Assembly: GCF_964204645.1 (NCBI RefSeq)
Contig: NC_134030.1
Coordinates: forward strand, 22,883,210 to 22,947,209
Source of the DNA: Tubulanus polymorphus
Taxonomy: Eukaryota > Nemertea > Palaeonemertea > Tubulaniformes > Tubulanidae
Direction of reading: 5' to 3'
DNA: 64,000 nt
The notes beneath the pieces were generated by a model that saw only the letters and a program-made list of their open reading frames with translations, ran no database searches and was not told the DNA's origin. Positions 15,501 to 18,306 of the stretch are shown here, piece by piece. The position numbers and the translations under genes are program-made. Position 1 is the first letter of the stretch, and every line of letters begins with the position of its first letter.

Positions 15501-18306
15501 TGAGAGAAATCTCCGGACGTCTGGCTGAGATGCCCGCTGATTCCGGTTACCCGGCGTACCTCGGAGCACGTCTAGCGTCTTTCTACGAGAGAGCTGGTCG
15601 CGTTAAATGTATCGGTAATCCTGAACGAGAGGGAAGCGTTACCATTGTAGGAGCGTAAGTTTTACTCTTATGTGATGTCATAGGGGGATTTATGGAGGCA
15701 GACATCTATTCTATAGAAGCAGATTAAATCACTAGTAAACAATTTGATGATGTCATAGGGGGATTGAGGCAGACATCTTTTCTAGAAGTAGATTAAATCA
15801 CTAGTAAAAAATTTGATGATGTCATAGGGGGATTTATGGAGGTAGACATCTTTTCTACAAGTGTCTATAGATCAAATCATTAGTAGACAATTTGATGATG
15901 TCATAGGTGGATTTATGGAGACAGACATCTTTTCTAAAAAAATGTTTATAGATAAGATCACTAAGGAGATAAATGATGTCATAAGGAGAATCAGGACTAA
16001 TATGTGTGTGTATTGTGTCTATTGTAGTGTGTCTCCCCCTGGTGGTGATTTCGCCGACCCCGTCACCGCGAACACTCTCGGTATTGTGCAGGTGTTCTGG
16101 GGTTTAGATAAGAAACTCGCTCAGAGGAAACATTTCCCGTCGATAAACTGGTTGATTAGTTACAGTAAATACATGAGAGCTTTAGATGATTATTACGAGA
16201 AAAACCATCCGGAATTTGTTGCTCTACGAACAAAGGTACAAAACCCCCCTTAAAACCCCCTTCAAACTCAATCCCTCCTATAGATCCCTTCATACCCCTT
16301 AAAACCCCTTACAACCCCTCCAATCCCCCTATAGACCCCTCCATACTCCTTACAACACTCCCTTCAATCATCAGAAATATGTTGCTCCATAAACAAACGT
16401 CAAAGGTACTCCCTATTCTTACTCAACTCTCCATTTATACCCTATATTCCCCCTACTTTCAATGAAATATTGCTGAAAAAAATTCAATTGATCAAATCGG
16501 ATAGCAGTTTTCAGGGGCCGGTTTCTTCGCCCCCCTCTCACTCTTTCACTCACTCTCTGTTTGAATTGTAGCAGTATTCAGGGGCCGGTTTCTTCGCCCC
16601 CTCTCACTCTTTCACTTACTATCTGTTTGAATTGTAGCAGTATTCAGGGGCCGGTTTCTTCGCCCCCTCTCACTCTTTCACTCACTATCTGTTTGAATTG
16701 TAGCAGTATTCAGGGGCCGGTTTCTTCGCCCCCTCTCACTCTTTCACTCACTATCTGTTTGAATTGTAGCAGTATTCAGGGGCCGGTTTCTTCGCCCCCT
16801 CTCACTCTTTCACTCACTATCTGTTTGAATTGTAGCAGTATTCAGGGGCCGGTTTCTTCGCCCCCTCTCACTCTTTCACTCACTATCTGTTTGAATTGTA
16901 GCAGTATTCAGGGGCCGGTTTCTTCGCCCCCCTCTCACTCTTTCACTCACTATCTGTTTGAATTGTAGCAGTTTTCAGGGGCCGGTTTCTTCGCCCCCTC
17001 TCACTCTTTCACTCTCTCTCACTCTTTCACTCACTCTCTCTCTCTGAATTGTAGACTCGTGAGATTCTACAGGAAGAAGAAGAACTCTCCGAGATTGTAC
17101 AGTTAGTCGGTAAAGGTTCCCTCGCTGAATCCGATAAAATCACTTTAGAAGTCGCTAAATTATTGAAAGATGATTTCCTTCAACAAAACGGATATTCATC
17201 GTACGATAAGTAAGTACGCCCGACCTCTCGACACGTCACATGTTCGAGGTTCACGTGATGTTTATAAATGTTTGTTATTTCAGATTTTGTCCGTTCTATA
17301 AAACGGTTGGAATGTTAAAGAATATGATCACATTCTACGACAGCGCTCGCCATGCGGTAGAAACAACTGCTCAGAGCGATAATAAAATCACCTGGGCAAT
17401 CATTAGAGATAGTTTATCAAATATCATGTATAAACTAACCAGTATGAAATTCTCTGTAAGTATTCATCCACTCTTAATCCACTTCCACTTGTTCCCAGTT
17501 CCACTCTCGATTCATTTCCACTGGTACCCAGTTCCACTCTAGATCGACAGTTCTGGATCAAGTTCCACAGTTCTGAACCCAGTTCCACAGTTCTGAACCC
17601 AGTTCCTCATCCAGTTTCACAGTCCTGTATCCAGTTCCACAGTTCTGAACCCAGTTCCACAGTTCTGAACCCAGTTCCACAGATCTGAACCCAGTTCCAC
17701 GGTTCTGTATCCAGTTGCAAAGTTCTGGATCCAGTTCCACAGTTCTGGATCCAGTTTCACAGTTCTGGACCAAGTTCTACAATTCTGGATCCAGTTCCGC
17801 TGTTCTGGATCCAACACAGTTCTGGATCCAGTTCCACAGTTCTGGATCCAGTTCCGCAGTTCAGGATCCAGTTCTACAGTTTTGGATCCAGTTCCACAGT
17901 TCTGGATCCAGTTCCACAGTTCTGGATCCAGTTCCGCAGTTCAGGATCCAGTTCTACAGTTTTGGATCCAGTTCCACAGTTCTGGATCCAGTTCCACAGT
18001 TCTGGATCCAGTTCCGCTGTTCTGGATCCAGTTCCACAGTTCTGGATCCAGTTCCACAATTCTGGTCCCAGTGCAAGTCTGGCAATTGTCCAGGGGATAA
18101 TTTTAGTAGAATCTGTATACATGAAATGTTATCGATGTTGATACTGCTGTTGCCATGCTAATGCTGCTGCTGTTGCCATGCTAATACTGCTGCTGCTGTT
18201 TTTGTTGTTTCAGGATCCGTTGAAAGATGGAGAAACAAAAATCAGAAGTGACTTCGAAGCTTTGAACGAAGAAATCCTACAAGGATTCCGAAATCTAGAA
18301 GACTAA
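12526..18306 (+). CDS. ATP6V1A: V-type proton ATPase catalytic subunit A
   Basis: Catalytic A subunit of the cytosolic V1 sector, which hydrolyses ATP to drive proton pumping into endomembrane compartments or across plasma membrane. Thirteen coding exons join in phase: 12526-12610, 12686-12814, 13125-13214, 13291-13412, 13495-13632, 14203-14354, 14903-15065, 15165-15273, 15417-15654, 16028-16235, 17055-17209, 17284-17455 and 18214-18306. The product is 617 aa, the length of the human protein. Residues 250-257 are the P-loop [45 protein letters not shown] and [12 protein letters not shown] follow in family order, ending in FRNLED. The start ATG lies nine bases after an acceptor-like TTGACAG, so a 5' UTR intron is likely, and the preceding 12424-12496 is pyrimidine-rich. 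All splice sites are GT-AG. Odd feature: introns 2, 5, 6, 9, 10 and 12 are loaded with tandem repeats. No disabling change is seen in the exons. Confidence 0.98.
12855..13075. repeat. Intron 2 repeat containing TAGCGCCCTCTGTTA
   Basis: About 2.3 copies of a ~97-bp unit, each with two halves (AGTAGCGCCCTCTGTTA and AGTAGCACCCTCTGTTA) separated by CACTACTGTG or GACGCACTAATTGACATTTT. It sits inside the ATP6V1A intron between 12815 and 13124. Confidence 0.75.
13640..14090. repeat. 20-bp minisatellite in intron 5
   Basis: More than 20 copies of a unit like TTAATATGTACATGTTCTCT fill most of the intron between 13633 and 14202. Each unit contains the near-palindrome ACATGTACATGT or a variant, so strands can fold back within the array. 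Confidence 0.9.
14391..14685. repeat. CCAGTTCCACATCTCTGAAT array in intron 6
   Basis: Around 14 units of 20 bp related to TTCCACAGTTCTGGATCCAG, including a locally amplified TTCCACATCTCTGAATTCAG subtype. Relative to ATP6V1A, it is the reverse complement of the unit in the large array at 26090-35262. Confidence 0.9.
15245..15350 (+). repeat. Partial duplication of exon 8 end in intron 8
   Basis: AGCAGCTCGTGAGGCT, coding for the AAREA segment at 15245-15260 in exon 8, recurs identically at 15335-15350 inside the intron. The copies are separated by a CCCTCC-rich tract. The copy lacks a following donor and looks like a slippage or repair duplicate. Confidence 0.7.
15666..15975. repeat. ~75-bp tandem repeat in intron 9
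   Basis: Four to five diverged units with TGATGTCATAGGGGGATT, GGCAGACATCTTTTCTA and ATTAAATCACTAGTA. They occupy the intron between 15655 and 16027. The TGATGTCAT core resembles a CRE half-site; no function is implied. Confidence 0.8.
16495..17050. repeat. 66-bp repeat carrying a copied 3' splice site, intron 10
   Basis: Units of 66 bp contain CAGGGGCCGGTTTCTTCGCC, a pyrimidine run CTCTCACTCTTTCACTCAC and then GAATTGTAG followed by CAG. GAATTGTAGCAG occurs at 16563, 16629, 16695, 16761, 16827, 16893 and 16960. The true acceptor of exon 11 at 17046-17054 is the same GAATTGTAG preceded by the same pyrimidine block, so the repeat appears to have grown from the splice acceptor region. Because 66 is a multiple of three, a 135-codon open frame runs through it; this is not a gene. 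Confidence 0.92.
17541..18085. repeat. 20-bp CCAGTTCCACAGTTCTGGAT array in intron 12
   Basis: About 27 units of TTCCACAGTTCTGGATCCAG and close variants, many with the palindrome CTGGATCCAG. Same family as intron 6 and the 9-kb array. Open frames in it on both strands reflect the absence of stop codons in the unit. Confidence 0.93.

Follow-up and report, generated by a model that had tools for sequence, protein, structure and literature searches.

A minisatellite carrying the 3′ end of intron 10 in the ATP6V1A orthologue of Tubulanus polymorphus and the probable fate of its spare acceptors

Eight similar 3′ splice-site sequences stand in a row in front of exon 11 of the gene for V-type ATPase subunit A in Tubulanus polymorphus, which raises the question of what the seven spare copies mean for the transcript: longer proteins, as the initial annotation proposed, unproductive messages, or nothing at all. 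Analysis of the window, i.e. the whole stretch of 64,000 nucleotides studied here, led us to favor, with a probability of roughly 70%, an intronic minisatellite whose unit took in the 3′ end of the intron and which is mostly spliced out together with it, perhaps leaking some unproductive mRNA. The array looks like a repeat expansion that the cell must mostly ignore, and not like a source of longer proteins.

Using a human ATP6V1A query sequence, tblastn matched the exons of ATP6V1A on the forward strand between 12544 and 18303, and joining 13 coding exons from the ATG at 12526 to position 18306 afforded an uninterrupted protein of 617 residues followed by TAA. Ten of the 12 coding introns were placed by a spliced-alignment script and by eye, introns 1 and 7, which lie inside single tblastn matches, by eye only, and all junctions of the model rest on protein similarity plus the GT-AG rule. 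As judged from these alignments, the gene is an intact ATP6V1A orthologue of 617 amino acids. On its own, exon 11 matches structures of V-type ATPase subunit A (best E 1.6e-21), and when 16235 is joined to 17055, the 12 residues across the junction align with V-type ATPase subunit A; together with the intact reading frame, this join bears out the start of exon 11 at 17055 as given in the initial annotation. The donor of intron 10 is weak, with a score of 3.9 (rank 4 of 36) on a donor matrix built from 36 sites. The features of the region are as follows.

16028..16235, + strand: exon 10 of the ATP6V1A orthologue (tblastn, junction fit and translation); the following intron is phase 0
16236..17054, + strand: intron 10, 819 nt, phase 0; donor AAG/GTACAA, acceptor GAATTGTAG/ACT
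16246..16356, + strand: a separate array in intron 10, 51-bp period, 2.2 copies (TRF)
16502..16504, + strand: TAG at the left edge of the 66-bp array, matching the TAG that closes each unit (sequence; putative role)
16505..16571, + strand: unit 1, 67 bp, edge variant CAGTTTT...CTCTCTG (unit alignment)
16572..16901, + strand: units 2-6, 5 x 66 bp, identical except for a single-base difference in unit 2 (unit alignment)
16902..16968, + strand: unit 7, 67 bp (unit alignment)
16969..17054, + strand: unit 8, 86 bp, real acceptor region with an extra internal duplication (unit alignment)
17055..17209, + strand: exon 11, none of whose sequence was seen in the repeat unit

The array spans 16505-17054 and consists of eight head-to-tail units, each closed by GAATTGTAG. 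TRF called it at 16502-17014 (period 66, 7.7 copies, 98% matches, score 980), and the head-to-tail order, a unit of tens of bases and the high identity between copies, seen with TRF and in the unit alignment, identify it as a minisatellite. On the forward strand of the window GAATTGTAG occurs eight times, every time within this array, and on the reverse strand once. The seven upstream copies end at 16571, 16637, 16703, 16769, 16835, 16901 and 16968, and the eighth ends at 17054, directly abutting exon 11, and represents the real acceptor, so that the description of an acceptor-like array immediately upstream of a conserved ATP6V1A exon holds. Seven upstream repeats, each directly followed by CAG (7/7), were likewise recovered as first described; a uniform unit of 66 bp was not, as the spacings between successive GAATTGTAG ends are 66, 66, 66, 66, 66, 67 and 86 and the lengths of units 1-8 are 67, 66, 66, 66, 66, 66, 67 and 86 bp.

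The units at the two edges (1 and 8) read CAGTTTT where the inner units read CAGTATT, and both lack the CTATC that is present in the inner units. This shared variant of the edges and the near identity of the inner units count in favor of the minisatellite reading, since an escape of edge copies from homogenization is a pattern reported for boundary repeats in amphioxus (PMC3087553). No exon 11 sequence was seen in the repeat unit when the unit alignment was inspected by eye; homology stops at 17054, and the bases 3′ of the AG, CAGTATTCAGGG in units 1-6 and CAGTTTTCAGGG in unit 7, are unlike the ACTCGTGAGATT with which exon 11 begins. A same-genome search covering 268 Mb on 77 contigs, which skips very common words, returned eight matches to the unit, all at this one place, and a dispersed element was rejected on these grounds. 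A special RNA structure was rejected as well, as the predicted fold of unit 2 (-11.6 kcal/mol, z -0.93 against shuffles) is not unusual.

Our preferred explanation is built on the observed array, its unit structure, its stop codons and its acceptor-like scores. The unit takes in the complete 3′ end of the intron, with branch-point-like motifs, a pyrimidine tract and TAG. The last 66-67 bases of the intron would have been duplicated first, plausibly between the TAG triplets at both edges, a 3-bp microhomology too short to be more than suggestive, and unequal exchange or slippage would then have multiplied and homogenized the inner units, as their pattern suggests. The real acceptor is the last unit of the series. 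Most transcripts are expected to lose the entire array together with the intron and to join exon 11 at 17055, while use of an upstream unit would give an mRNA with a premature stop that is probably degraded.

The closest known relatives of such an arrangement are the amphioxus 'mirage' minisatellites described for Adh3 and the globin genes BflGb6 and BflGb9 (PMC3087553). There, many mirage copies carry AG/GT signals, copy number differs between haplotypes, edge (boundary) copies escape homogenization, and the Adh3 data together with RT-PCR of the globins suggest that regular splicing is undisturbed (PMC3087553). The present array shares with them the tandem repetition of an intron boundary region that carries its splice signal, as well as the edge copies that escape homogenization. 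However, the mirage units characterized there (150-160 bp in BflGb6, 10-72 bp in Adh3) extend across the boundary, with exon sequence inside the repeat (PMC3087553). The unit here stops at the AG without sequence of exon 11, and we therefore class the array as a variant of the mirages instead of a true member. In human paralogues, internal tandem repeats located where exon and intron meet can switch on or generate splice signals and change splicing (PMC2812944). These share with our case the expansion of a minisatellite at such a boundary; they are described there as variable repeats of segmental duplicates, with transcripts supporting the changed splicing, whereas the present array was found at one place in genomic sequence. 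Each copy also reads TAGCAG, a NAGNAG motif as in tandem acceptors. In classical cases three bases are inserted or removed. Here either acceptor of a copy runs into a stop, and the true site reads TAGACT, which is no NAGNAG. Finally, the 38-bp intronic repeat VNTR6-1 of human TERT is reported to shift isoforms with consequences for splicing and decay (PMC11830802). It resembles our array in being an intronic minisatellite with such consequences, which in our case are predicted, but about 3.5 kb separate it from the exon it affects, and its proposed mechanism involves G-quadruplexes, in contrast to the duplicated acceptors at this locus (PMC11830802). Among the listed titles and abstract openings of open-licence literature on ATP6V1A splicing, repeats and acceptors, no description of this array was found.

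Whether the spare copies could be used at all was approached through their predicted strength. An acceptor matrix was compiled from 36 inferred acceptors of this genome, 11 from this gene and 25 from two EEF2 genes and VCP; one of the 26 EEF2/VCP junctions (7671/7957) was dropped as doubtful before scoring. The matrix separated left-out acceptors from 149 AGs in the other introns of the gene with an AUC of 0.873, and it is weak, as 31 of these 149 AGs reach the score of the true site and seven that of the copies. The spare TAG sites scored 6.5-6.9 (rank 16-18 of 36) versus 4.4 (rank 7 of 36) for the true site, and the spare CAG sites 5.8-7.3. The difference between copy and true site amounted to 2.17 with a bootstrap 95% interval of -2.29 to 7.44. 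An earlier matrix of 11 sites gave the same order (7.4-7.6 versus 3.7), whereas a generic matrix reversed it (true site 6.5, copies 4.3-4.8). Thus, as far as such small models go, the copies do not fall far below the true site, which agrees with the ready-made acceptors of the initial annotation. Every copy also carries YTNAY motifs of its own, placed at about -20 to -32, together with an AG-free stretch of 54-55 nt. In our view the copies are plausible acceptors within the score range of inferred real ones, and scoring picks no winner among them; given these small-matrix scores and the motifs and AG-free stretch of every copy, the sequence alone offers no reason for 17055 to win, which counts against the preferred explanation. 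Some use of the spare copies therefore appears likely from these features. The locus offers a natural series of eight similar acceptors within one essential gene, and RNA-seq junction counts would show how the spliceosome chooses among modules of branch point, tract and AG.

Cassette exons inside the array were considered and rejected: at the six array positions scored with the 36-site donor matrix, the best GT of the unit, CCGGTTTCT, reached only 1.9 compared with 3.9 for the real donor of intron 10. Among all GTs of exon 10 and intron 10, three scored above that donor, at 16045 and 16092 in exon 10 and at 16406 in intron 10, on a matrix in which one training donor was one base off, and the donor model accordingly fails to pick the real site either.

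The alternative that survives best, although we regard it as unlikely, holds that the copies are wholly inert, all use being blocked by the limits of exon definition, by the CAG that follows the TAG and by pyrimidine tracts weaker than that of the true site. Unit 8 does have the longest pyrimidine run (12 nt versus 8 in the copies) and the longest AG-free stretch (74 versus 54-55 nt), and the generic matrix prefers the true site, but the acceptor matrix from the genome itself does not rank the copies lower. Moreover, under the scanning model, which was described for introns whose branch points are distant, splicing takes the AG that comes first after the branch point (PMC1431707), and a branch-like motif with an AG is present in each copy. 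If the copies were silent, the locus would be an ordinary repeat expansion beside a splice site.

Translation in the frame of exon 10 revealed what use of the copies would entail. All 14 upstream choices, seven TAG acceptors and seven CAG acceptors three bases further on, meet a stop, and none keeps the frame open into exon 11. From five of the seven upstream TAG acceptors the stop is a TAG after 21 codons, namely the acceptor TAG of the next unit, which is read in frame owing to the phase-0 intron, the acceptor triplet TAG and the length of most units (66 = 22x3 nt). The sixth acceptor leads to TGA after 19 codons, and the seventh, with its exonic sequence starting at 16969, shifts the frame through an 86-nt extension and meets TAG after 45 codons. 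Over the TAG and CAG choices, the stop follows 18-21 new residues in copies one to six and 44-45 in copy seven. The initial annotation had called the array stop-free, which is wrong for the frame of exon 10 at phase 0; another frame is open for 158 codons (16492-16968) and may be what was seen there, but exon 10 does not lead into it. Under the NMD rule, a stop located over about 50 nt upstream of the final exon junction triggers decay. The premature stops lie 275-744 nt before that junction for all 14 choices, a position that fits NMD-coupled (poison) splicing in every case, and the products of upstream acceptor use are expected to be decay substrates and not insertions of 22 residues. A simple rule follows: when a phase-0 intron has its TAG acceptor copied in units of 3n bases, the resulting products terminate themselves, which is the reverse of protein extension.

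This outcome invites a regulatory reading, which we consider improbable, in which splicing draws on the spare acceptors at a fixed or regulated rate, their stops feed decay, and the copy number sets the rate, thereby tuning V-ATPase subunit A. In its favor, seven acceptor-like spare sites stand 5′ of a single true one, every upstream choice brings a premature stop at a long distance before the last junction, intron 10 has a weak donor, and TERT VNTR6-1 provides a human precedent for an intronic repeat reported to alter an isoform ratio and feed decay, albeit by another mechanism (PMC11830802). However, the in-frame stop is automatic once phase 0, a TAG acceptor and a unit divisible by three come together, so that no selection is needed to explain it, and the other long introns of the gene are likewise filled with arrays. 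The sharper proposal of a dosage dial for an essential proton-pump subunit, in which a length-variable array of seven near-identical poison acceptors lets allele length set the share of transcripts lost to decay, seems slightly more doubtful again. If it were true, each added unit would be one more competing acceptor leading to an in-frame stop, and any tandem duplication with a 3n unit at a phase-0 intron with a TAG acceptor would make a poison switch without further mutation. The array could tune the output of the gene, and nothing in the data demands it.

An assembly artefact, be it a wrong copy number or the duplication of one allele, is very improbable: tandem repeats are hard to assemble and a single assembly was examined, but the differences between edge and inner units are orderly and the contig measures 23.0 Mb. 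Least credible of all is the original proposal of acceptors that extend the protein in frame by multiples of 22 residues, which could draw on the acceptor-like copies, the divisibility of 66 by three and the one open frame of the array, but which was rejected, and is already refuted for the inferred exon 10, since all 14 upstream choices run into a stop and the 86 nt after the seventh copy shift the frame, leaving rescue only to an alternative upstream exon of different phase.

The minisatellite reading gains context from the surroundings of the array. TRF arrays cover 2574 of the 3926 intron bases of ATP6V1A (65.6%, computed with a single donor misplaced by one base, at 15067 instead of 15066) and occur in 8/8 introns of at least 98 nt versus 0/4 introns of 74-82 nt (introns of 12611-18213), so that intron length in this gene seems to be set by minisatellites. 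They cover 32.5% of the window, or 17.5% without the two largest arrays, compared with 6.4% of 200 kb of control sequence from 20 places chosen by position on six contigs; TRF returned no rows for either of two control stretches, one with an EEF2 gene and one with the VCP gene. With so many arrays, it is not very surprising that one of them took in an acceptor. The distance between the window and the end of its contig is 97 kb, and a subtelomeric position is a candidate cause of the repeat richness; the last 600 bases of the contig contain no recognized telomere repeat but a TCCCTC run and, after it, a GC-rich repeat with a unit of about 33 bp.

Several further repeats were recorded. Intron 12 holds a 23-bp duplication (18144-18195) that ends 18 nt before its acceptor, a second acceptor-proximal array in ATP6V1A, and contains a CTAAT motif that may be a branch site. 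A 20-bp satellite of the AACTGTAGAACTGGGTCCAG type (TRF, consensus units compared by eye) forms a 9-kb array at 26096-35260 and smaller ones at 14399-14677, 17547-18065, 45873-46041 and 50421-50584, with both orientations among its arrays, and it also lies inside introns 6 and 12 of ATP6V1A. A 22-bp repeat, ATATATCCCCACAACTACCTCC, without G in its consensus, runs from 61531 to 64000 and reaches the end of the window, and the GC skew is -1.0 over 62001-64000. At 43685-45276, a GC-rich 33-bp repeat in 48 copies carries long open frames on both strands, the arrays at 5129-5490 and 6418-6847 (86- and 92-bp units) are apparent reverse complements of each other when their consensus sequences are compared by eye, and a (CAG)48 tract at 56171-56314 shows no mismatch in TRF.

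Ten long frames were scanned against Pfam, of which eight gave no match, and two on the minus strand, at 20412-21470 and 38187-39401, matched rhodopsin-family 7TM receptors. Elsewhere in the same genome (contig C5:3401001-3424000), there is a tandem pair of EEF2-like genes spaced by about 10 kb, and its second member looks somewhat more diverged from the human protein.
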